Source: Pirellulales bacterium
GTDB lineage: Bacteria; Planctomycetota; Planctomycetia; Pirellulales; Lacipirellulaceae
DNA: 64,000 bases
Direction of reading: 5' to 3'
Assembly (NCBI GenBank): GCA_019636345.1
Contig: JAHBXQ010000007.1
Span: forward strand, 62,001-126,000
Shown: piece by piece, positions 17,024 through 62,978 of the stretch
Layout: each line of letters begins with the position of its first letter
Numbering within the stretch: the first letter of the stretch is position 1
Translations under genes and position numbers: made by a program
Notes under the pieces: generated by a model
What the model was told of the DNA's origin: nothing
Database searches by the model: none
What the model saw: only the letters and a program-made list of their open reading frames with translations

Positions 17024-18705
17024 GGTCCGGCCGCGCGGACCGTGTGCCGCGAAAGAAGCAGGCGTGTTTCGTAAATTCCGATTAAGGCGGCGATCGCCAA
17101 GACCGCGGTCGAGGGTTCGGCCACGACGGCGCTCGCCGCCGCGCCGACCGGCGCCGGTCCGCCAAATTGTCCGTGCCACAGGGCCAGATCGCCGCCGTCG
17201 GTGCGGCCGTCGAAATTGAAGTCGCCGACTGCCGGCGCCGTCGCGTCCGTCGAACCGTAGCCGCGCTGCCACTGCAGAAAGTCGGCCCCGTCGATCGTGC
17301 CGTCGCCGTTGGCGTCGGCGGGCATGGCCAAATCGAGATTCTCGAACCGCACCTCGTCAAAGTGAACGGCGCCGGAGCCGTTGTTGCGCTGGCGGAACAG
17401 CAACACGACTCGCGCTTCGACCGCTTCGTTTGGCGCCACGGTCGACAACGAGCGCGGAAGCCACACGTCCTGCGGCGAGGAGCCGTCGGCGACCGTCTGC
17501 ACCAGCTCGCTGATCATGTCGGCCGAGCCGTACTTCCCGCCGAACTTGCGATAGAACTCGATCTTGAGCAAGGCGTCGTTGTTGGTGCCGACGATGCTGT
17601 CGCCCGAGCGGATGAAGGCGTTCACGTCGGCCTCGACCCGATTGCCCGCGACCACGGTGATCCCTTGCGAGACGCCGGAGTAGTTCTCCTGGATGATGGA
17701 CTGGCCGAATAATTTCAGGGAGCCGCTTCCGTCGAGGTGCGCTTCGGCCGCAACTTGCACGTTGGGATTGGCGGCCAGCGTGTTGCCGAACGTGCTCCAA
17801 CCGGCCAGTCCTCCTCCCGCCTCGTCGAACCCAGGATTCCGAAAGACGACCGGCGGGGGATTCTCAGCCCGCTCATACACGCGGACATAGTCGACCAGCA
17901 TTTGCTGCGGCCAAACGCTCGAGCTGTTGGGCTGTGCGGTCCCCAGAAAATCGCCGCCGACCGCAACGTTGAGCACCGTTTCCATTTCCGCAGTCGTCGA
18001 ACTGAGGAATCCGCCGACGTCCTGATTGTGAAGCGTCAAGTAGTTCACGTCGTCGACGAAGAATCGCAGCTTGTCCGCGTCCCACTCCACGGCGTAGACG
18101 TGAAAGTCGTTGTGGTAGTTCGACAAGACCCCGTTCACGCTGGTCCGCTGCTGGCCCCACTTGTACTGGTGAGCGGCGACGCTGCCGCCGTAGTGGTACG
18201 CGCTGCTCGTGAGATGGGGCTCGGTGCCGCGATTTTCGAGGATGTCGATCTCGCCCTGCGTCGGCCAGCCATGCACGGTCGTATCGGGCAGCAGCCAAAT
18301 CGCGGGCCACGTGCCGCGGGTCCCCGGCAGTTTGGCTCGAATCTCCCAACGCCCGAACTGCTGCGTGATCTTGCTCTCAACCTTGCCGGAGGTATACGCC
18401 TTGCCTCCCAGCGGCGTGTTGTCGGCCGTCAGCACGAGATGGCCGTCGGCCACCGTAACGCGCGACGGGTGGTAGGCCTGCCGTTCGTTGTTGTAGGGGG
18501 TGAGCCAGAGGATCGGATCCCACTTCGTCGTATCGAGCGTCGTGCCGTCGAATTCGTCGCTCCAGGTCGGAACCCATCCGGGAGGCGCGGCCGGGGTTGA
18601 ACTAGTCCCCAGTCCGAGCGTCGTGAGCACGGCGAAGACAGTCCGCCAGCGGCGAAGATTCTTGCCGGGGCTGCAGCGCGGCGGTCGTGAACAGGGGAAA
18701 TGCAT
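17020..18705 (-). CDS. Glycoside hydrolase family 16 (laminarinase-like) with dockerin-like repeat and PEP-CTERM
   Basis: 561 residues. After an N-terminal signal segment, the GH16 domain (about 45-270) opens with WSDEFDGTTLDTTKW. The catalytic motif is EIDILE, with nucleophile Glu152 and acid/base Glu157, in the spacing typical of beta-1,3-glucanases and related enzymes. A second beta-rich module (about 285-440, NPGFDEAGGGLAGWSTFG) looks like a carbohydrate-binding domain. A dockerin-like pair follows (DGTIDGADFLQWQR, DGRTDGGDLALWHG), then a PEP-CTERM-like tail (AEPSTAVLAIAALIG). The exact glucan cannot be read from sequence; laminarin is most likely given the coupled GH3. No Shine-Dalgarno is visible at its ATG. 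Confidence 0.9.
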   Translation of the reverse strand: MHFPCSRPPRCSPGKNLRRWRTVFAVLTTLGLGTSSTPAAPPGWVPTWSDEFDGTTLDTTKWDPILWLTPYNNERQAYHPSRVTVADGHLVLTADNTPLGGKAYTSGKVESKITQQFGRWEIRAKLPGTRGTWPAIWLLPDTTVHGWPTQGEIDILENRGTEPHLTSSAYHYGGSVAAHQYKWGQQRTSVNGVLSNYHNDFHVYAVEWDADKLRFFVDDVNYLTLHNQDVGGFLSSTTAEMETVLNVAVGGDFLGTAQPNSSSVWPQQMLVDYVRVYERAENPPPVVFRNPGFDEAGGGLAGWSTFGNTLAANPNVQVAAEAHLDGSGSLKLFGQSIIQENYSGVSQGITVVAGNRVEADVNAFIRSGDSIVGTNNDALLKIEFYRKFGGKYGSADMISELVQTVADGSSPQDVWLPRSLSTVAPNEAVEARVVLLFRQRNNGSGAVHFDEVRFENLDLAMPADANGDGTIDGADFLQWQRGYGSTDATAPAVGDFNFDGRTDGGDLALWHGQFGGPAPVGAAASAVVAEPSTAVLAIAALIGIYETRLLLSRHTVRAAGP

Positions 18706-25865: not shown

Positions 25866-28175
25866 TCACGGGCCTCCGACGACGGGGGACTTGGCGACGA
25901 CGTCGGCCAAGTCTTCAAGGAGGTTGCTGCCGTAGCTGTCGGGGAGCAGGAACTCGATGTGGCCCGTCGTGACGTCGTACATGGCGCCGACAATGGCGAT
26001 GCGATCGGCGTCGACCAAGCCGCGCAGCGTGCGGCTGCGCGCGTAGATCTCCGCGACGGTGCGCTGGACGTTGCGGCGGGCCACTTGATCGACGAACGCC
26101 GCGCGCTCGCGGTCGCCGGAACGCCGGTGGAAGTCGTCGATGCGACCGGCGATCGAGTGGTTGATCTCCTCGACCACTTCCCCCAAGTGATTGCAGGACG
26201 CCAGCAGCGGGTCGATCGGCTCGCCCCGGGCCGTAGCCGCGGCGAGTTGCACCGACGAGGAGACCGCCCCGCACTGGGTGTGGCCGATCGCCAGCACGAC
26301 CTTGGCCCCGGCGACCGAGCAGCCGTACTCCATGCTCCCCAGGATCTTCGGGCCGACGATATTTCCCGCGATGCGGATGCAGAAGATGTCCCCCAACCCC
26401 AGGTCGAAGACGATTTCGGCGGGCATCCGCGAGTCGACGCAACTCAGCACGACCGCCAGCGGATGCTGGCCGTGCGCCGCCGCGTGCCGTTGGCGGCGGA
26501 AGTCGTACTCGAGGTGACGTCCGGTGCGAAATCGTTCGTTCCCTTCATGCAGGAATCGGAGAACCTGCGCGGGGGACGATTTCGACTGCAGCTCGCGCGT
26601 CGAGTAGTCGACGTAGCGAATCTCGTCTTCGAGCTGATAGCTGCTGCGGAAGCCCCGCAGGCTGACCTCGACGCCAAAGGCCGGGGCGATCTCTTGCTTG
26701 TATTCGCGAACCAGGCTGAGGATGTCGGGATCGATGTAGTCGGAATGCACCGCGTCGATCAACAGATGGGATCCGGGGGGCGTGTTGCGGAGCGTCTGGC
26801 TCAACGAGGCCCGGTTGAGGAAGCTCACTTGATTGGCCAGTTGCAGGTGGACCACTTCCCCGCTGGCGTGTTTCTCGACGACGCGCTGAATCGGGCGCCG
26901 CAGGTTGCTGTGGAGGATGAACGTCAGGCTGACGCCCAGCCCGATGAGGACGCCGGTCAACAGGTCGGTCAGCACGATCGCCGCCATGGTGATCACGAAC
27001 GGCGCAAATTGGTAACGGCCCTGACTCCACATTTTCCGGAACAGGTCGGGGTTCGCCAGCTTGTATCCGGTATACAGCAGGATCGCCGCCAGACAGGAGA
27101 GCGGAATGTGATTGAGCTGCGTCGGGAACAGGGCCACGCACACCAACAGCAGACCCCCGTGGATCACGGTCGCCAGCTTGGTGCGCCCGCCGGCCAGCAC
27201 GTTGACCGAACTGCGGACGATGACCGACGTCATCGGCAATCCGCCGCACAATCCGGCCGTCACGTTGCCCGCCCCCTGGGCCAGCAGTTCGCGGTTGGGA
27301 GGAGACTGCCGGCGCTGCGGATCGAGCTTGTCGACCGCTTCAAGATTGAGCAGCGTTTCAAGCGAAGCGACGATCGCGACCGTGATCGCCGCCATGTACG
27401 CGGCCGGGTTGGTCCACTGCGTGAAATCGGGGAATGCGAGGAAGCCGACGAACTCGCGCACGCTGCCGGCGACAGGCACCTGCACGAGGTGGCTCGATTG
27501 AATCAACCATTCTCCCCCCAGCCGGTCGAACCACAGTTTCAGCCCCGCCCCTGCGAGCACGACGACCAACGGCATCGGCACGAGCGAACCCTTCAGCGGC
27601 TTCCATTGCGACACGATCATGAGACCCAGCGAGATCAGCCCCACCACGATCGCGCCTTCGTGAATTTCGCCCCACAGATGCAGCAGCTCGGTGAAGGTGT
27701 TTCGCTTGTCCGGCTGGAGGAAGGTCAAGCTCCCGGTCGGATCGGCGTCGCGGCCCAAGAGGTGGGGGATTTGCTTGAGGATGAGGATCACCCCGATCGC
27801 CGACAGCAGACCGTGGATGACGCTCGTGGGAAAGAACGCGGACAAGTTGCCGGCGCGGAGCAAACCGAGCACGATCTGCAAGGCGCCGGCGACGGTCACG
27901 ACGAATAGGAACGCCTCGAACGAGCCGAGCCTTTCGATCTCGAGCGCCACGACGGCCGTCAATCCGGCGGCGGGTCCGCTGACGCTGGTGTGAGACCCGC
28001 TGAGGAGTCCGACCATCAGCCCGCCGAGGATTCCCGCGACGATGCCGGAGAACAGAGGCGCCCCCGAGGCGAGCGCAATCCCCAGGCAGAGCGGCAGCGC
28101 CACCAAGAAGACGACCACGCCGGCGACCAGATCCTGGTGCAGACGATACGGAGACGCCGCCGCGGATTGGGTCAT
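25866..28175 (-). CDS. SulP-type anion transporter fused to beta-carbonic anhydrase
   Basis: 769 residues. Residues 1-420 are a SulP permease (DLVAGVVVFLVALPLCLGIA; SGPAAGLTAVV; GGLPMTSVIVRSSVN). About 430-545 is a STAS-like domain (VVHLQLANQVSFLNRASL; GSHLLIDAVHSDYID). The C-terminal 215 residues are a beta-carbonic anhydrase with the zinc and dyad residues Cys579, Asp581 and Arg583 (SCVDSRMP), His632 and Cys635 (GHTQCGAV), so the enzyme should be active. The likely role is bicarbonate uptake with interconversion of CO2 and bicarbonate at the inner membrane face. Such fusions are known in several phyla. It is convergent with the MFS gene and 41 bases from it. Confidence 0.95.
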   Translation of the reverse strand: MTQSAAASPYRLHQDLVAGVVVFLVALPLCLGIALASGAPLFSGIVAGILGGLMVGLLSGSHTSVSGPAAGLTAVVALEIERLGSFEAFLFVVTVAGALQIVLGLLRAGNLSAFFPTSVIHGLLSAIGVILILKQIPHLLGRDADPTGSLTFLQPDKRNTFTELLHLWGEIHEGAIVVGLISLGLMIVSQWKPLKGSLVPMPLVVVLAGAGLKLWFDRLGGEWLIQSSHLVQVPVAGSVREFVGFLAFPDFTQWTNPAAYMAAITVAIVASLETLLNLEAVDKLDPQRRQSPPNRELLAQGAGNVTAGLCGGLPMTSVIVRSSVNVLAGGRTKLATVIHGGLLLVCVALFPTQLNHIPLSCLAAILLYTGYKLANPDLFRKMWSQGRYQFAPFVITMAAIVLTDLLTGVLIGLGVSLTFILHSNLRRPIQRVVEKHASGEVVHLQLANQVSFLNRASLSQTLRNTPPGSHLLIDAVHSDYIDPDILSLVREYKQEIAPAFGVEVSLRGFRSSYQLEDEIRYVDYSTRELQSKSSPAQVLRFLHEGNERFRTGRHLEYDFRRQRHAAAHGQHPLAVVLSCVDSRMPAEIVFDLGLGDIFCIRIAGNIVGPKILGSMEYGCSVAGAKVVLAIGHTQCGAVSSSVQLAAATARGEPIDPLLASCNHLGEVVEEINHSIAGRIDDFHRRSGDRERAAFVDQVARRNVQRTVAEIYARSRTLRGLVDADRIAIVGAMYDVTTGHIEFLLPDSYGSNLLEDLADVVAKSPVVGGP

Positions 28176-28854
28176 CGGCGCACCTGCGTGTTGCTGACGA
28201 GTCGGACAAGCGGCTCAGCGAACGCCGAGCGCGAGAGAGGACGGCAGCCCCGCTCTCATTTTTGCGTTGGGGACGCTGCTAGTGCAACTCCATCGGGCGG
28301 AGTTCGGCGTTCTCGAGTCCAGAACGACGAGTCGTTCCAAGACCGACGGGATGGGCGGATCCGCTCATCAGCGAGCGCCGGGTCGCCATCCCACCGAGGC
28401 TCGCAGGACACGCGACTCGCGTGACGGAGATCGCGGAAATCGAAAGCCCGGAGATCAATGCCGCTTGGCGGGGGCGACCGACAAAGTCACCGAGTTGCGA
28501 ACAGACCCTCGCGCAGCGGCCCCGAGGGCGTCGAGCCGTCGCAGCGGCGACTCCAGACCTCGGCGACGCTCACCGTGCTGGTGCGGACTCAGTGTCAGGC
28601 GTTGTATTGAATCCTCGCCTCATACGTCCGAGGGGCGGAGAACGCGTTGTCATTTTGCCGGCGAGCAAAACTCCATCACTATCTCGTGCAAAACTCCGGT
28701 CTGCGGGGCGGGGGAGGATTTTCCGAACGTGTTGGGGGTCAACGTCTTGCGCGCCGGGACGGCGGTCGCGGGGCGACTGGTTTTGCTAGCAAAACTCGCG
28801 GCGGGCGAGCAAAACTCGCGACCCGTCGCGGCTCGCGCCGGCGCGCGATTGCGT

Positions 28855-28967
28855 CGCAAGGGCAGGTGAAGCGTGCGGTTGGCAGGATCTGTTCTACGCG
28901 ATGCGGCGGCCCATTTTCCAGTAAGAATCCCGCGGGAAATTGAGCGGACGATTCCGGCCTTGTCGCG
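28855..28967. repeat. Direct repeat D1
   Basis: A segment of about 113 bases is closely repeated at 29255-29364. Long shared blocks include CTACGCGATGCGGCGGCC and AATCCCGCGGGAA. The two copies flank GC-hairpin copy A, suggesting a segmental duplication or an element inserted between repeats. Confidence 0.7.
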
Positions 28968-29130
28968 CCCCCCGGGTAGCACCGGTTGTCCTCAAGGGTG
29001 TGCGCAAGCAAGAAGCATCTCTCCTGCGGCTGCGCCGCCCCCTGAGGGTCTTCGAGACCAAGTTTCGGGGCGTGCCATGCTCTCGTCCTCGTGAGCATGC
29101 GCCGCGTGGCGAGGGGATGCTTCCCGCGCG

Positions 29131-29248
29131 CAGGCAGCCCCGGCCTCTGGCCGGGGGTCGCGCACCGAAGGTGCAACGCTTGCTCCAACGGAAATTTACC
29201 CCCCGGCAGAGCCGGGGGCTGATGTTGCCATTGGCAACGTCGCGCGCG
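29131..29248. repeat. GC-hairpin repeat, copy A
   Basis: About 118 bases with two GC-rich hairpins, CCCCGGCCTCTGGCCGGGG and CCCCCGGCAGAGCCGGGGG, separated by about 40 bases containing GCAACGCTTGCT, and ending in a third small inverted repeat (TTGCCATTGGCAA). The two hairpins are also related to each other in inverted orientation. Close copies lie at 31893 and 33650. Confidence 0.85.
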
Positions 29249-29254
29249 CTGTGC

Positions 29255-29364
29255 CGCAAGCGCGGGCGAAGCGCGCGGCTGGCAGCATCTGCTCTACGCG
29301 ATGCGGCGGCCTATTTTCTACCGGAATCCCGCGGGAACTGAGCGGACGGTTCCGGCCTTGTCGC
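29255..29364. repeat. Direct repeat D2
   Basis: Second copy of D1 (28855-28967), same orientation, about 400 bases downstream, with scattered substitutions and a few length differences. Confidence 0.7.
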
Positions 29365-29722
29365 CGGGCGCTCCTCGCTGGATTTTCGCTTCGGGGCGGG
29401 CGTGGGCGGCGTCATCGGTGGGTGGGCGGCGACAATTGAGCGGGCTGATTCTGGGGGGTCGAGGCTGGTTTCAGGGTGGGATTGGCGAGGGTTTCTGGCG
29501 GCGCGATCATTTGTACCCCACAGACGGTTCCTGTTCGCCGCTGCGCGGCGGGCGGAAAATCGGTCGTGGTGGCTGGTTGACGGCGATTATCGAAGGTTCA
29601 AAGCGACAATTTCAGTCGCTGCTGTCGGCTGGTTGGTCTTGGATTGGCGGCTGGTTTTCTGGGGTTTTGGTTGGCGACGACTTTTTGCGCCCTACGGTCT
29701 TGGCAGTGCGATTTATTGCACG

Positions 29723-30229
29723 CTACGGCCACGACTCTACTAATTCCCAAGTCCGAGTGAATCTGGCCCTAAAGAATTCGAATCGAAGGCATGAAACGTT
29801 ACCGTAAGATGATGATTGCAGCTTGCATTCCAACTGAAACATTACAGCCCCAACAGTTCCCTCGACACGTCCTTGCACAGGCTTGGGCGGCAGGACGTTT
29901 AGCGACTCAACGAATGACCCTTCATACGGAAATCTAGTCCCAGCAAAGGCAAGGCTATCAATCGATGAGAAATCGGCTTGAAGTGACTCAACCAAAGCGC
30001 GCTCTTTGGAATCTAGCGTTGCTTGCTGAATCACGAGCTTCAAAGAAGCTGTCCCGAAAACGCATGCGTGCATGACTTCATTACCGTCATCCACAAAACG
30101 CCACGGCAAGGTCATATTCAAAGAGGTAAGTACCGCATCGTGAAGAGGGCCCAGCCATTCCTGCAATTCGCTTGCGTGAGACAACTCATACAATTCAAAA
30201 TCATCTGGTGGTCTCCTAGTCATAGCCAT
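29723..30229 (-). CDS. Small protein of unknown function, AT-richer than its surroundings
   Basis: 168 residues with normal amino-acid balance, no signal peptide, no membrane helix and no motif I recognise (ELYELSHASELQEWLGPLHD; WRFVDDGNEVMHACVFG). The alternation of acidic and hydrophobic residues looks like a soluble globular domain. The gene is visibly richer in A and T than neighbouring genes, and it lies between repeats and an IS3 element, which suggests recent acquisition. It ends beside a repeat-rich zone and starts about 115 bases from the left end of the IS. A second ATG at 30223 is equally plausible. No good Shine-Dalgarno is visible. Confidence 0.55.
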   Translation of the reverse strand: MAMTRRPPDDFELYELSHASELQEWLGPLHDAVLTSLNMTLPWRFVDDGNEVMHACVFGTASLKLVIQQATLDSKERALVESLQADFSSIDSLAFAGTRFPYEGSFVESLNVLPPKPVQGRVEGTVGAVMFQLECKLQSSSYGNVSCLRFEFFRARFTRTWELVESWP

Positions 30230-30366
30230 TACTCAAAGTCCCGATGGTGGATCTGGCTGCCCGGGCAACGGCGGAATACACCCGCCAAATAGCCGAGGAG
30301 AACGGACGCATAGGCAGCTTGGCGGCGTCCTGGTTCAGCGTGAACTGGAATTCCGGCCTTCGGACG

Positions 30367-31514
30367 TTAGCGGGTTGAAAGGTTGAATTGACGGTTCAGC
30401 ACCGACGATTTGCGGAGCGGCTGTCGCCGGGGGGAGTTTGTTGGGCGTTCACGCAGACCGGGGGGCTCATCGCCGCCCCCCGGGACCCCCGCTAGCCTTT
30501 CTCTGTGTTCCGTTTTGCAGGCGGCCGACGCAGCCGCTTCCTGGCGCCGCGTCGCGCGGCGCTCTCGGGCCTCGGCGAGCTTCCGCTCGCGCCGGGCGTA
30601 GATCTCCTCGTGCCGCCCGGCGAGCCGATCGGCGGGGGTGACGTAGCCCAAGGCGGAGTGAAGCCGCGCGTGATTGTACTCCTGGACGAACTCGGCGACG
30701 AGTCGGCGCGCATCTTCCAGCGACAGCGGGACGTTCGGGCGGATGCAATCGCGCTTGAGCGTTCCATGCCAGCGCTCCAGCTTGCCGTTGCTCTGCGGAT
30801 CGTACGGGCTCGTGCGGACATGAGTCATGCCGCACAAGCGGATGAACTCCTTGAAGTCCTTGGCGACGAACTGCGGGCCGTTGTCCGAAATGATCCGCGG
30901 CGTCGCGCCGGGGAACTTTTCTCGCGCCCGCTGGATCACGATCTCGACGTCGGCTTCCTTCATCGACTCTCGCAACTCCCAATGAACGAGGTAGCGGCTG
31001 CACCCGTCGAGGACGCTCGTGAGGTAGTAAAACGTCCCGCAGACGTTGACGTAGCTGACGTCGACGTGCCAGTGTTCGTGAGGTTGCAAAGGCTGCACGA
31101 AGCCGGTTCCCTTCGACGATTCTCGGCGATTCCAGCGGTCGAACCGGCCCGCCTCGTTCAGCACGCGGTAGACGGTCGCCGGGCTGGCGGCGACCAGGTC
31201 GGCGTCGAGCATGAGGTACGTCAGCCGACGATAACCTTCGAGCGGCCGCTCGGCGTCGAACGCCCGGATCGCCTCCTTCTCCCACGCCTCCAGCCAGTGG
31301 TCGCGCGGCACGGGGGCGTTGTGCTCATTGACCTTCCCGTACCGCGCTTGCCAGTCGTAGAACTTGCTCATGCCGATCCCCAGCCACTGGACTAACTTCT
31401 TCGCGGGAACTTCCGTCCGCTGGTGCTTCGCGCGAACGTAGTCGACGACCTCGTCACGGACGTCCGGCTCGACCCACCGCCCCTTCAGGGGAGGCCAGGC
31501 GCTTTTTTTAAGCG
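30367..31514 (-). CDS. IS3-family transposase OrfB (DDE integrase domain)
   Basis: The catalytic part of the transposase, made as an OrfAB fusion by -1 frameshifting. It begins in frame at the slippery run (reading LKKSAWPPLKGRW) and continues through an HTH_21-like region (LEGYRRLTYLMLDAD; SPATVYRVLNEAGRF) to the rve integrase core. The catalytic triad is visible: Asp in HWHVDVSYV, Asp in RIISDNGPQF, Glu in NGKLERWHGTLKRD. The C-terminus has a long basic tail of about 70 residues that is unusual for the family. No independent start with a good ribosome site is evident, as expected for a frameshift product. The frame is open further upstream to 31710, antisense-free but overlapping orfA. Confidence 0.9.
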
Positions 31515-31823
31515 GACGTTCTCCTCGGTCAGCTCGGCGATCACCTCGTTCTTCACGGCGAGCCGCTGTTCGAGATGGGCGACGCGCCGTTCCACGGGAG
31601 ACGGCCCGGCCGGCTTGCCCGGCTTCTTCTCGAACGCCGCGGCGGCGCCTTCGAAGAGTTGCTTCTGCCACTGGTAGAACTGCGTCGGCGTGATCTGCGC
31701 CTCGTCGCACAGGTCCGACACCGCCACCCCCTCGAGCAAGTGACGCTTCACCAGCGCCACCTTCTGCTGGGCCGTAAAATGACGCCGCTCACGCCGCGGC
31801 GAGTCCTGAGAATCGATGCTCAT
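31485..31823 (-). CDS. IS3-family transposase OrfA (helix-turn-helix)
   Basis: 112 residues. It begins RRERRHFTAQQKVALVKRHL and contains a helix-turn-helix (VSDLCDEAQITPTQFYQWQK) followed by a leucine-zipper-like stretch (VERRVAHLEQRLAVKNEVIA), the normal OrfA plan for binding the terminal repeats and for dimerisation. GAGG lies close upstream of its ATG. The last codons run over TTA AAA AAA G, where ribosomes can slip back one base into orfB. Confidence 0.92.
   Translation of the reverse strand: MSIDSQDSPRRERRHFTAQQKVALVKRHLLEGVAVSDLCDEAQITPTQFYQWQKQLFEGAAAAFEKKPGKPAGPSPVERRVAHLEQRLAVKNEVIAELTEENVRLKKAPGLP
31505..31512 (-). promoter_or_regulatory. Programmed -1 frameshift site (A7 run) in the IS
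   Basis: Read on the minus strand, CTTAAAAAAAGCG gives Leu-Lys-Lys-Ala in the OrfA frame and Leu-Lys-Lys-Ser in the OrfB frame. An A-rich heptamer at the orfA/orfB junction is the standard frameshift signal of IS3-family elements. Confidence 0.8.
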
Positions 31824-31874
31824 GGGGAATTCCTCCTGAAGGCGTTATGCTAACGCCCGTCAAGCAGAATTCCA

Positions 31875-32265
31875 CTTCCGACTGAGGCAGGACAGGCAGC
31901 CCCGGCCTCTGGCCGGGGGGTTGCGCACCAAAGGCGCAACGCTTGCTCAAACGGCAATCGACCCCCCGGCAGAGCCGGGGGCTGATAGTGCCATTGGTAA
32001 TGTTGCGCGCGGCGCGTGGCAGTGGGATGCTTCTTGCGGCTGCGCCGTGCGAGGTTGAGGACAACCTGGGCTACCCGATGTGGGGGGGCAGCGCGGACGC
32101 CCCGAGGGGCTGAGGGCGACGGGGGAGATGCCGGTAGAGTATTCTTGATTTCGCGAGACGGCGGCGCGACGATGTCGGCATGACGCGGCAAGAGGCCGAG
32201 CAGGCGGCGGAGACCATCGCAGCTGTCGCGCGAGGGGGAACGTCGCTCCTTCCTCACATCTACGC
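31875..32265. other. Intergenic region with repeat copy B
   Basis: Apart from GC-hairpin copy B, this stretch has GAGGTTGAGGACAACCTG near 32050-32067. In reverse complement this matches a piece flanking copy A (CCGGTTGTCCTCAA, about 28981-28994), so parts of the island are shuffled and inverted. No gene was recognised. Confidence 0.45.
31893..32012. repeat. GC-hairpin repeat, copy B
   Basis: Same two-hairpin layout as copy A (CCCCGGCCTCTGGCCGGGG and CCCCCGGCAGAGCCGGGGG, spacer with GCAACGCTTGCT). It lies immediately outside the right end of the IS3 element. Confidence 0.85.
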
Positions 32266-33558
32266 ATGAACCAATTTCGCCACTGCCGCTTTCGCTTCAA
32301 CACGCGCCAGGCGCTGCTGCTAACGCTGGCGGTCGCCGTGGGGATGACGATCGCCTCAGGTTGGCACTTTGGATTGCTGGCCGTCGTTAGCGTGATGGCA
32401 ATTGCCGGGCTCTTGAGCGATGTTCGTGCCCTGCGTCGTTACGAGCGAGTGGGCCTGCTCGCTGACAATGACCTCCGTTTTTCCCTGCGGTTCGCCGTCA
32501 TCTGGCGTCTGACCCTTGCAGCGATACTCGCCTTCTCCCTCACCGCCAAAGTGCTCTTGGTTCGCGGCCTCATCGACCTTCCCAAGGATGAATTCCGGTT
32601 CTACGAAGACCCTCTCACCGGCTATCTTCTCTGGTTGGCCCTTGGGTTGGCTCTGGTCGTCGAGTTAAAGGCTCCGCAGTCCAGAAGAACAGCAGTGTGG
32701 AGGACTGCAATTGACGTGACTGTGGTCGCGGCTGCCGTTGCGTTGGGTCGATACATAATCGAGGACGCCTGGTGCGTGCCCTACCTTGTTCACCTCATTT
32801 GCGAAGATGTGGACGCTGCGCTGATCAATGCCACGCATCGTTATGGAGTGACGGCGCTTTCTGACCGCCGGCTCTATGACGCCGCTTCGTTCGTACTCGC
32901 AATTGCGGTAGTCGCCGCGGCGCTCGCTTGGGTCGGGGCCGAGAAGTTGCCTAGGAACCGTCGAGGCTGGAGGGCAACGCTCGGCATCGTCGCGGGCGCG
33001 TTTCTCGCCGTCGCCGCGACGATCTCGTACTGGTTTTACTTTCTTGCGTTTCCGAAGCTCTCGCCAGACGCTGCGGAAGCCGGGCTGTGTTCTTCGTGGT
33101 GGCGTCGATTGGGCGGTTTGGCGATCGGGGCGCTGCTGACGGCGGCAATCGCTCACCGGGGATGCACAGGTCCCACGGAGAACGAAGCCCCTCCGCTTGA
33201 GATCCCTGTTCCGCGCGCCTTCCATCGATCGTTACTTGCGGGGCTGCTGCTCTCGCTCTCGTCCCTGTCCTTGTTCGCGCTTGCTGCTCGTGAGTGCATC
33301 GACAATGGCTGGGAAAGCGGGGCATATTTTCTCCTGGATTCAGACAACTACCTGAGTTTCGCTCTGCTCGTACTCGGTCTCTGTATCGTGTGGCGCCGCC
33401 TCTGCCGTGCGGACGATGAAGTCATCGAAGTTCGCCCGCTGTCGGCCCGAGCCTTCTTCCTCGCCTGGGGCGCGGCCGCACTTTGGCTGATCGTCGCCGT
33501 GCCGAGCCTTGCCGCGTCGGGATGCCTCTCGTGGCACGGGACGTGGTTTCTTGAGTGA
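32266..33558 (+). CDS. Multi-pass membrane protein of unknown function
   Basis: 430 residues with roughly ten hydrophobic segments (ALLLTLAVAVGMTIASGW; LLWLALGLALVVELK; LVLAIAVVAAALAWVGAE-type stretches; ALWLIVAVPSLAASG). Two short charged loops separate them, with one longer extracytoplasmic-type loop around residues 165-205 (IIEDAWCVPYLVHLICEDVD). I recognise no family. It stands alone between two GC-hairpin repeats with no same-strand partner, and no Shine-Dalgarno is visible before its ATG. It could be a cargo gene of the repeat island or a lineage-specific orphan. Confidence 0.7.
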   Translation: MNQFRHCRFRFNTRQALLLTLAVAVGMTIASGWHFGLLAVVSVMAIAGLLSDVRALRRYERVGLLADNDLRFSLRFAVIWRLTLAAILAFSLTAKVLLVRGLIDLPKDEFRFYEDPLTGYLLWLALGLALVVELKAPQSRRTAVWRTAIDVTVVAAAVALGRYIIEDAWCVPYLVHLICEDVDAALINATHRYGVTALSDRRLYDAASFVLAIAVVAAALAWVGAEKLPRNRRGWRATLGIVAGAFLAVAATISYWFYFLAFPKLSPDAAEAGLCSSWWRRLGGLAIGALLTAAIAHRGCTGPTENEAPPLEIPVPRAFHRSLLAGLLLSLSSLSLFALAARECIDNGWESGAYFLLDSDNYLSFALLVLGLCIVWRRLCRADDEVIEVRPLSARAFFLAWGAAALWLIVAVPSLAASGCLSWHGTWFLE

Positions 33559-33649
33559 AGCGGGGAGCACCGGTTGATCGCAAGGGAGTGCGTGGGCAAG
33601 GAGCATTCACTCCAACCGTGGCCCCCAACTGGACCGCCGCTCAGATCCC

Positions 33650-33765
33650 TGCAGCCCCGGCCTCTGGCCGGGGGTTGCGTACCGAAGGCGCAGCGTTTGC
33701 CGCAACGAGAATCTACCCCCCGGCAGAGCCGGGGGCTGATGTCGCCTTTGGCAACGTCGCGCGTG
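33650..33765. repeat. GC-hairpin repeat, copy C
   Basis: Third copy of the two-hairpin repeat, with a slightly diverged spacer (GCAGCGTTTGCC) and ending GTCGCGCG, a few bases before the doxX stop codon. Upstream (33567-33615) is a diverged version of the sequence that precedes copy A (GAGCACCGGTTG, then GCAAGG). Confidence 0.8.
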
Positions 33766-33770
33766 AGGCG

Positions 33771-34187
33771 TCATTCGGCGGGGGTCGCCGCTTGTCGGGC
33801 GTCCCAGCTTCCTCGTCCGGCTCCGTTTGCGATGAGGAAGACCATCGTCCCCATGAGCGCGAGGTTCTTCATGAATTGGATCATCTGCATCTGCCGGTCC
33901 TGGCCCTCGAAGGTCCAGAAGTCGTGGAAGTAGTAGGTCGCCAGGGCCAAGAACGTCAGCAGCAGCGCGGCGCCGATGCGCGTCTTGTAGCCGACGATCA
34001 CCGACAGCCCGCCGACGATGAGGAATGCAATCGCTCCGGCGAGCATCACCTGCGGCGCAGGGACTCCCTCGGCCGCCATGTACCCGGCGACGTCGTTGAA
34101 CTGGGGGATCTTGTTGCCGACCGCGCTGGAGAGAAAGATCACGGCGATCATTACGCGGCCAAGCACGGAAGCTGCTGACGATAGCAT
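33771..34187 (-). CDS. DoxX family membrane protein
   Basis: 138 residues with four membrane helices. It opens LGRVMIAVIFLSSAVGNKIP, the usual DoxX entry, and has GAIAFLIVGGLSVIVGYKTR and AALLLTFLALATYYFHDFW. DoxX-type proteins are small membrane proteins linked to redox homeostasis and quinone or thiosulfate metabolism; the precise reaction here is unknown. It is the last gene of a tight minus-strand operon marR-pirin-doxX (42 bases after pirin). That context suggests expression under oxidative or electrophile stress. Confidence 0.9.
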   Translation of the reverse strand: MLSSAASVLGRVMIAVIFLSSAVGNKIPQFNDVAGYMAAEGVPAPQVMLAGAIAFLIVGGLSVIVGYKTRIGAALLLTFLALATYYFHDFWTFEGQDRQMQMIQFMKNLALMGTMVFLIANGAGRGSWDARQAATPAE

Positions 34188-61900: not shown

Positions 61901-62978
61901 CCTCTTGGTTGGCCCCGCCCGGGGACGGCGCGACCATGTAACCGGTCACAGCCGTGCTGAATCGCGTGGCCACCAACAGCGGCGCAATCAAGAAGTCGCT
62001 GCTCGAGGCCGGGCGGTTCAGGCCGTGAATGGCCAGCATGTTCTCGCCGGCGACCAGCAGGTGGCGATACGCGCTCAGGTCGAGTTCTTCGTAGACAACG
62101 GCCAGATTGTCGGAGTGAAATTGCGTAGCGATCGAATCGTAGCTTAAGGTCGCCGGGGCGTTCCGCTGCCCCGCCGCCGCCGGAAGCAGCGTTCCGTTGA
62201 GATAGACGGCGAACCCGTCGTCGTACCTCATCCGCAGGACGAGCGCCGTGACGTCGTCCGGATTGACGACCGGAAACCCGTACCGGAGATACGCCGACCC
62301 CCGCACGTTGTACATCTGCGGGCCGACGTCGACATTGAAGTACGGCAGATACGTCGTGTCGTTGTCGTAACCGACCCCTCCGACGCCGCTCAGCCAGCTC
62401 GAGTCGTCGAAGCCGGGGACGTACCACGTCGTCGATGTGCCGGCGTCGGGGACGAGCGCCTTGACCGGCGCCTGATCGCCCACCAGATTTTCGTTGATCA
62501 GCGCCTGTCCCCCGCGACCGTACGAAATGTCGGCGAGTTGGGCGGGGAACGGATCGAACGCGTCCACGACGGTGACGCCGTCGGGCTGCACAAGCGCGAG
62601 ATACTCGCCCTCCGAGCTGAGCGCGAAGTTCGTATGGAGATTCTGTCCGGGGACGGCGCGGTCTTTGCCCGAGGCGAACACGACCAAGTATCCGTTCGCC
62701 GGAATCTCGACCGCCGGGAAGGTCCACCTCGTCAGATTGTCCTCGTTGTCGGTGAGATGCCAGCCGGCCAAGTCGATCGCCGCGTCGGTCGTATTGCGCA
62801 GCTCGATCCAGTCGGCCCGGAAGCCGTCCTCGTCCTGGAGCCCCGACTGGTTGACCGCCAGGAATTCGTTAATCACCACGCCGGTCAGCGCCAGGCGCGG
62901 TTCGAGCCGCTCGATGCTGAGCGTGAGGGGAGTCGCGGAGCGCGCCCCGGACGGGCGTCGTGTCAGGCGGTCGATCAT
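58932..62978 (-). CDS. Giant exported protein: LEPR motif, lamin-tail domains, CotH-like kinase, dockerin-like repeat
   Basis: 1348 residues. The N-terminus carries IERLEPRLALTG, the planctomycete LEPR export-associated motif. A lamin-tail domain (VINEFLAVNQSGLQDEDGFR, ADWIELRNTTDAAIDLAGW) follows, then beta-sandwich regions (to about 350), a chitobiase/beta-hexosaminidase C-terminal-type domain (EIRYTTDGSVPT), and a CotH-like kinase region (about 500-840, HSRFVHLYVNGLYWGLYDMH). A second chitobiase-type repeat (LYYTLDGSDPRTAGG), a second lamin-tail domain (NLEFIELQNTGASPI) and a dockerin-like pair (DGRVDGGDFLAWQR; DRNVDAADRGLWAAN) close the protein. A 95-residue charged tail replaces a PEP-CTERM. 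It is likely a cell-surface or extracellular protein; CotH proteins phosphorylate extracellular proteins in spore-formers, but that role here is inference. Confidence 0.85.
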   Translation of the reverse strand: MIDRLTRRPSGARSATPLTLSIERLEPRLALTGVVINEFLAVNQSGLQDEDGFRADWIELRNTTDAAIDLAGWHLTDNEDNLTRWTFPAVEIPANGYLVVFASGKDRAVPGQNLHTNFALSSEGEYLALVQPDGVTVVDAFDPFPAQLADISYGRGGQALINENLVGDQAPVKALVPDAGTSTTWYVPGFDDSSWLSGVGGVGYDNDTTYLPYFNVDVGPQMYNVRGSAYLRYGFPVVNPDDVTALVLRMRYDDGFAVYLNGTLLPAAAGQRNAPATLSYDSIATQFHSDNLAVVYEELDLSAYRHLLVAGENMLAIHGLNRPASSSDFLIAPLLVATRFSTAVTGYMVAPSPGGANQEGTLGIVADTKFSVDRGFYSAPFTVAITSATSGAEIRYTTDGSVPTATTGLIYNPANPPLINKTTTLRAAAFKTGFTPTNVDTQTYIFLDDVIQQSGAGLPPVANWGYAGPDWAMDPDVVNNPLYSGTIKNDLQAVPTVSLVMPWNDWFGGGGQGIYPTASEIERAVSMEYITADGTNQFQINAGIEIQGGTSDDRWKMDKLSMRVKFTEPYGPEKLDATVYTNGERDAGAAVQFNTFVLDAHMGYTWAYGGTINAVDQRSRAMYVQDAYVADLQNLAGGAAPHSRFVHLYVNGLYWGLYDMHERPDEHFAESYLGGDDDDYDVIKHNAATVVSTDVNNPSSALTNYAAMLNLVRQDMSVHANYLAAAAKIDVDDFIAYMLVNYYVGNDDWAHQNWYASFNRVDPEGKWRYHSWDAENVLKDVNRDSTNLNNSGGPTEVFQRLIANTEFRLRFNDLAQKHFFNGGLLTPAGAASVYQARMDEIDRAIVGESARWGDNHTTASDPVGAGNPYTRAEWLARQNSLLTSYFPARTGIVLNQFSNRGWRTTLGAPTFTNYGGTVAAETQVTIAKPAGSPAGGILYYTLDGSDPRTAGGGVAPGAIAAPGGSTTLAINAGVRVRARVFDAAQAGVANDWSAEIDATFLLDVPFPLRITELHYNPASLPGVTDTQNLEFIELQNTGASPISLDGVRITEFSNTGYTFPTGLTLAAGERIVVARSPSVFLQAYGPGLNVAVTGYFDQNLSNGGERIALLGPLGEVLQDFVYDDAADWPLEADGGGKSLEIIDPLGDPSDPANWRASYYVGGSPGTSGEAPAIVGDFTGDGRVDGGDFLAWQRGFGTPALQGSAAAGDADGDRNVDAADRGLWAANYGESVSLAIAAALVEPANEPLLLADAGDSATSPRWFLVAESSEQPTHERPRRQFQVEHVDAAFAVNRLERTSWATAPRPRWDDQDASLSDHDEVLSIRAARKVHASSSLKSDILSEAFWETW

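Follow-up and report, generated by a model that had tools for sequence, protein, structure and literature searches.

The window analysed here (64,000 nucleotides; positions 62001–126000 of contig 7 in a 5.18-Mb genome of 15 contigs) contains a segment that a preliminary description had read as a gene-poor island built around a three-copy hairpin repeat. Two ORFs outside insertion sequences lie in it. The first (29723..30229, minus strand) encodes 168 aa, has a GC content of 48.7% vs 64.9% for the window, and gave no match in Pfam, NCBIfam, PADLOC or PHROGs at the limits used and none to plasmids, in line with its earlier reading as an AT-richer orphan gene. An IS3-family element follows, also on the minus strand (about 30327..31891); it had been recognized before and is recovered by NF033516 at 175.8 bits (cut-off 160). 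Its left end was set by a match to another such end, located on contig 2, and its right end by eye from the inverted ends, at which no clear target duplication was seen. The second ORF (32266..33558, plus strand) encodes a membrane-protein-like product of 430 aa with patchy, distant homologues, present in 8 of 396 sampled genomes of the order, its own included; it had been called an orphan, which fits the small number of homologues but is too strict, as the other seven genomes hold matches at 24–27% identity. A DoxX ORF (33771–34187) is convergent with it. Because the two ORFs and the IS3 ORF span still cover 58% of positions 28176–33770, the segment is gene-poor in part only. This island is probably for the most part a cluster of small repeat debris, ordinary as such. 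RNA family, phage, plasmid and defence origins were tried as candidates and rejected, with no accepted match to any.

A repeat search recovered a 113-nt unit at 29134–29246, 31897–32009 and 33651–33763, the second and third copies being 79% and 89% identical to the first. As had been described, all three share two hairpins and a spacer, with hairpins 1 and 2 starting at 29138/29200, 31900/31963 and 33655/33717; six of the seven perfect hairpins with an 8-bp stem and a 3-nt loop in the window belong to these copies. The cores, all on the plus strand, occupy 29131..29246 (copy 1: hairpin 1 at 29138–29156, spacer, inverted hairpin 2 at 29200–29218), 31893..32009 (copy 2: hairpins at 31900–31918 and 31963–31981) and 33651..33763 (copy 3: hairpins at 33655–33673 and 33717–33735). 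A small third hairpin, GTTGCCATTGGCAAC, lies downstream of the two. Hairpin 1, GCAGCCCCGGCCTCTGGCCGGGGG, is mirrored by the other strand of hairpin 2, TCAGCCCCCGGCTCTGCCGGGGGG, and comparison of the cores with their own reverse strand gives about 64–71% agreement over about 88 nt; the core of about 115 bp therefore consists of two related repeats facing opposite ways, foot outermost. The foot is GCAG or TCAG in this genome and not GTAG, the stems are like CCCCCGGC/GCCGGGGG, the loop is TCT, and the DNA folding z-score of the core is −5.1.

Ten full copies of the element were found genome-wide by blastn, and a covariance model (R1) returned the identical ten, on eight contigs (1, 2, 4, 5, 6, 7 with three copies, 8 and 10). 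The model added two weaker dimers and a third at E 0.25, and hairpin 1 with up to two mismatches occurred at 14 genomic places (reversed control: 0). Mean column identity in the alignment of the ten cores was 89%, with one spacer type in eight cores and another in two. Base pairing was assessed on 37 hairpins chosen by hand, three from the window's genome and 34 from the 65 distinct ones of relatives, picked so as to limit near-duplicates. The eight stem pairs were formed in 98.0% of cells and 34 cells were altered on both sides, values that none of 500 shuffles reached. The covariation score was 0.362 vs 0.102 in shuffles, none of the 500 coming as high, and all versions of the alignment slid out of register scored far lower; four pairs changed on both sides, a number equalled by 72 of the 500 shuffles. 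The inner stem is thus under pairing constraint, and with two inverted REP hairpins separated by a spacer the core is a REP dimer, or REPIN.

A second repeat adjoins nine of the ten cores and encloses two. One half reads GGGTAGCACCGGTTGTCC..., its inverted partner ends in ...GGACAACCTGGGCTACCC, and together they make an outer dimer that measures about 145 bp and is bounded by GGGTAG...CTACCC (GGGTAG-CACCGGTTG...CAACCTGGGC-TACCC). Here the foot is GTAG, degenerate in several copies. At copy 1 the left outer REP (28973..29024, plus strand) has the GGGTAG foot, the CACCGGTTG... stem and the start of the outer spacer. At copy 2 the left outer REP is absent, replaced by the IS3 end, and the inverted right one remains (32009..32077, minus strand); at copy 3 the left outer REP, with degenerate foot (33561..33650, plus strand), begins 2 bp past the stop codon of the 430-aa ORF. 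Judged by eye, nine of the ten cores have a left outer REP and three an inverted right one, while the contig 5 core has a direct-oriented outer REP on its right. The two outer halves stand together without a core at five places, spanning about 145 bp (in one case about 185 bp), and there fold into a single long hairpin (DNA folding z-score −6.3). At two places, on contigs 4 and 6, the core lies inside the outer dimer at the same part of the spacer, and on contig 6 a short stretch of outer spacer is found on both sides of it.

The length of about 145 bp and the imperfect terminal inverted repeats might also suggest a MITE, that is, the remnant of a DDE insertion sequence with GGGTAGC...GCTACCC termini. 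We consider this very improbable: the ends are REP-like, with stem-loops behind a GTAG foot, and visual inspection of the two filled copies that are complete revealed no target duplication. The outer-REP pattern (up to three mismatches) matched at 19 places in the window's genome, at none in the same-genus genome and at one or two places each in eleven other genomes. Since control matches occurred in ten genomes, the outer REP is at background level outside the window's genome except in one relative (G020), whose two places carry 0 and 1 mismatch and where, at one of them, GCAAGAAGCA comes next, as in the window's genome. The outer dimer is nearly confined to the window's genome.

Larger blocks recur around these composites. 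A repeat of about 335 bp, module A, stands directly left of the outer REP at copy 1 (28632..28971, plus strand) and at five further places, and at a sixth, on contig 8, with module C between; a second partial copy lies at 29242..29366 (plus strand), and there are more copies elsewhere in the genome. Module C, a 74-bp block (29036..29109, plus strand), sits between outer REP and core and is also found near the contig 8 copy. The flanking blocks that had been noticed in shuffled (28850/29250 and 28973/33561) or inverted form (28973 vs 32055–32077) were confirmed. Several additional repeat families occur in the same islands. As the outer dimers and the cores are nested, the shuffled blocks can be understood as a mosaic in which two nested REP families are mixed with other repeats and the IS3 element. 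When the 300-bp flanks of the ten composites were compared (twice, the first comparison, with longer seeds, having missed some matches), module A was common to window copy 1 and the copies on contigs 5, 8 and 10, and 30–98 bp of another repeat to those on contigs 1, 2 and 6, whereas window copies 2 and 3 and the contig 4 copy shared nothing with the flanks of the others. Flanks are thus unique in three of ten cases and shared in seven, so that a minority clearly spread as single composites and others are likely to have travelled within longer blocks.

These observations bear on the suggestion that homologous recombination between repeats amplified and shuffled the blocks with no transposase involved, the island being a recombination hot spot. 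Modules A and C and the outer REPs do recur in altered order and orientation, and the repeat pieces in the flanks of seven composites and the further repeat families sharing the islands point the same way. However, the flanks of window copies 2 and 3 and of the contig 4 copy are unlike those of any other, and recombination leaves the inverted, foot-outward pairing across genera (see below) unexplained, which makes it rather unlikely as the whole explanation. The hot spot of the preliminary description is plausible on the indirect grounds of the shuffled blocks, the shared flank repeats and the IS3 end (placed by eye) at copy 2; no rearrangement was traced.

Some copies are placed closely with respect to genes. 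The space separating the 430-aa ORF from the convergent DoxX ORF is taken up by copy 3, whose core stops 7 bp short of the DoxX 3′ end. The TAG of the foot terminates an ORF at the contig 6 copy, and a further dimer on contig 2 is located about 2 bp past one ORF and 18 bp ahead of the next. One ORF runs through the entire composite on contig 2, with what we take to be a PEP-CTERM-like segment. None of the ten composites overlaps an ORF that passes a crude codon-GC filter, and for most of them the nearest such ORF is 70–800 bp away, so no general preference for gene 3′ ends is established. The convergent gap filled by copy 3, the contig 2 dimer and the stem covariation would suit hairpins selected at gene ends as RNA-level attenuators or stabilizers of mRNA 3′ ends, their spread being secondary. 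Set against this are the distance of most composites from a filter-passing ORF, the lack of a T-run after the stems (by eye) and the absence of the hairpin (up to one mismatch) from 25 of 43 genomes of the family. Rfam gave no match above gathering score in 28600–34000, and the best overlapping one, epsC over copy 2, reached 26.2 bits vs 42. We therefore consider a primary RNA role quite unlikely.

With up to one mismatch, the inner hairpin was present in 18 of the 43 family genomes, the window's own included; the reversed pattern gave no match in 42 genomes and one in the remaining genome. Three genomes of one genus (g11) had 162, 317 and 256 places, ten others 5–87, four 1–3 and the window's own 16; numbers are patchy even within a genus, from 0 to 317 across g11. 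Model R1 matched in at least 15 of the 43 genomes (own included) and at least 5 of 14 genera, model counts in relatives being lower bounds, with 86 candidates scored per genome and some places counted on both strands. The only other genome of the same genus, 72% complete, has one hairpin and no inner dimer. In a relative with 87 places (G015), 24 of 27 neighbours within 150 bp faced foot-outward, none foot-inward and three were direct. After removal of one overlap artefact and six repeated spacers, 37 dimers in relatives left 30 distinct spacers of 29–58 nt, variable in sequence and commonly with complementary ends. GTAG was the foot of 15 of the 65 distinct inner hairpins in relatives, all selected by a filter that required AGCC. 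A scan of named genomes, in which records of the window's own genome may have been left out, found the strict hairpin 1 pattern on three contigs of a MAG labelled Pirellula sp. Anatomy and sharply differing numbers in relatives support the family of mobile hairpin elements proposed earlier, with the reservation that movement itself was not seen, nor any empty chromosomal site.

The possibility of an old functional locus whose order is conserved across distant relatives had also been considered. Window ORFs of at least 110 aa (positions 18000–48000) were compared with about 10 kb upstream of the SulP–carbonic anhydrase gene in seven relatives (E up to 1e-8), a one-sided comparison, and only the SulP gene itself matched; an earlier comparison had used the 1.5-kb flanks of eight relatives and six window proteins. 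In the same-genus genome, the contig ends at this region. With no other window gene found there in the seven relatives, the outer REP no commoner in other genomes than control matches, the two G020 places excepted, and no supporting evidence found, an old conserved locus is almost certainly not what lies here.

A RAYT-mobilized REP system would include a Y1 transposase (RAYT) gene flanked by its cognate REP. Y1 genes were found in 42 of the 43 family genomes. We examined 66 Y1 loci: the 30 best of the profile matches listed, 33 more (31 from hairpin-bearing relatives and two from the same genus) and the three of the window's genome. A hairpin with AGCC foot was found at 32 of them, in both orientations at 22; two controls each gave 5 and 1 of 66. 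Relatives' Y1 genes are thus flanked by REPs of similar build. The inner hairpin itself, within three mismatches, was at none of the 66, at least 39 of which come from genomes holding it, and no Y1 gene flanked by its cognate inner REP was therefore among them. This speaks against the genes examined as its source, both the relatives' and the three of the window's genome. Of these three, only L019 matches nearly the whole profile; L020 (23.7 bits) is just above and L021 (22.5 bits) just under the cut-off of 23. L019 instead has inverted ends (ATGGACCTGTCCCCTTTT; GGACCTGTCCCC) that contain GGGGACAG. A longer hairpin starting AGCCCCCGGTTC was seen at locus L167. With the hairpin at 0 of 66 loci, the link between inner REP and Y1 enzyme is one of analogy; mobilization by such an enzyme in trans is most likely.

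Judged by their build, the repeats are of the paired palindromic REP/REPIN kind, two kinds being nested in a BIME-like mosaic. The anatomy with its inverted pairs, the covarying stems, the occurrence of outer dimers both with a core and lacking one, the many inner REPs of relatives and the similarly built REPs beside relatives' Y1 genes lead us to consider it probable, by analogy with known REPs, that the nested dimers spread by a Y1/RAYT-type transposase acting in trans, with additional shuffling by recombination. We infer that a single insertion placed the inner REPIN in the middle of an outer one, after which copies of the composite arose at further sites, some of them at gene 3′ ends. Ends of copies would have been lost by decay, recombination and IS insertion, and longer blocks may have been shuffled by recombination between repeats and also by IS. 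The engine would be single-strand transposition by a RAYT-type Y1/HUH transposase, perhaps no longer encoded in the window's genome. Against transposition, a REP family would usually have more copies (10 full and two weaker dimers here, up to 317 hairpins in one relative), and the flank repeats of seven composites also fit spread by block recombination; these shared flanks shift weight from transposase-led spread towards recombination. Transposition and its rivals are not mutually exclusive. A narrower version is possible though doubtful: that the inner REPIN entered the outer palindrome once and the composite spread as one non-autonomous unit, served in trans by a Y1 enzyme whose gene either bears other ends or is no longer in the genome.

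The part worth keeping is the nested pair, which occurs both with its core and lacking it: because outer dimers of both kinds occur in one genome, the order of events is partly readable. With this locus, a planctomycete family whose members range from none to hundreds of copies gains a clear example of REP dimers, and two questions gain a natural system: can REPINs carry cargo, and can REPs be moved by a Y1 transposase whose own gene is accompanied by different ones? For those who read genomes, it accounts for a puzzling gene-poor island as largely repeat debris.

REP dimers as such are a known kind; the nesting of one in another is the unusual trait, and the part of the open-access literature that was searched held no mention of a nested two-REP pair. 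REPINs (PMC3116915) are inverted REP doublets that form hairpins, with compensatory stem changes and a spacer constrained mainly in length and pairing; for those of Pseudomonas, deep sequencing served to look for reads that omit one precisely. The elements described here share the inverted pair with spacer, the compensatory changes and the spacer limits, and differ in their low copy number, a cognate RAYT not found among 66 loci, the nested core and the GCAG/TCAG foot. The GTAG-tagged super-family has head-to-head dimers and 24 published families, and R. baltica is among the species with several REP families (PMC3733652). The outer REP, with GTAG outside at both ends, is set beside it by foot and build; in some relatives GTAG is also the foot of the inner REP, and an ORF may stop at the TAG of the foot in that super-family, as it does at the contig 6 copy. 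The same source (PMC3733652) describes TIRYT, a group of Y1 transposases whose flanking inverted repeats contain GGGGWSAS. The inverted ends of L019 with their GGGGACAG resemble these repeats and are unrelated to the hairpins studied. TnpAREP/HUH class 3 is reported mainly from Planctomycetes (PMC6006769), and planctomycete Y1 genes are accompanied by repeated secondary structures there as here. IS insertion at REPs, as described in PMC1525189, has a single parallel in the IS3 end (placed by eye) adjoining the copy 2 core. Like BIMEs (bacterial interspersed mosaic elements), as outlined in PMC2817692, the composite is built of REPs that alternate in orientation and are separated by recurring motifs; here it consists of two distinct REP types, one lodged in the other and recurring together.

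Repeats other than the hairpin composites (an inner REP-dimer core beside or inside an outer REP dimer) are also found in the same surroundings. One family, with members 70–95% identical at the extracted loci L234 (4795–5019), L237 (4609–4830), L230 (948–1106) and L232 (2217–2391), is common to the same repeat-rich islands. A further short repeat (L233, near 2892–2921; L234, 5175–5271; L237, 3775–3872) adjoins three composites, its side varying between them. Module A, the ~335-bp repeat directly left of the outer REP at copy 1, contains a short block (window 28891–28935; L191, 1278–1319) that was found alone at 12 places in the genome (E up to 0.005). The only genome of the same genus has it too, with a Y1 transposase gene about 0.5 kb away; this block probably constitutes another small repeat family. 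The window gene at 25866–28175 encodes a fusion of a SulP-type permease with a carbonic anhydrase domain, and a second gene, 52% identical, lies on contig 1 of the same genome.

In the hairpin pattern scan of the family genomes, all five exact inner hairpins of G003 lay on one and the same strand, in contrast to the paired hairpins of other genomes. Longer hairpins at the Y1 loci L167 (G036), L174 (G027) and L177 (G028) of relatives have AGCCCCCGG in common with the inner REP, in L167 in the form AGCCCCCGGTTC, and are possibly a sister type of it. In the own genome, a Y1 transposase gene (L019, 1204–1878; contig 2, near 429749) has inverted ends, ATGGACCTGTCCCCTTTT and AAAAGGGGACAGGTCCAT, which match GGGGWSAS, the motif published (PMC3733652) for TIRYT, Y1 transposases flanked by inverted repeats.
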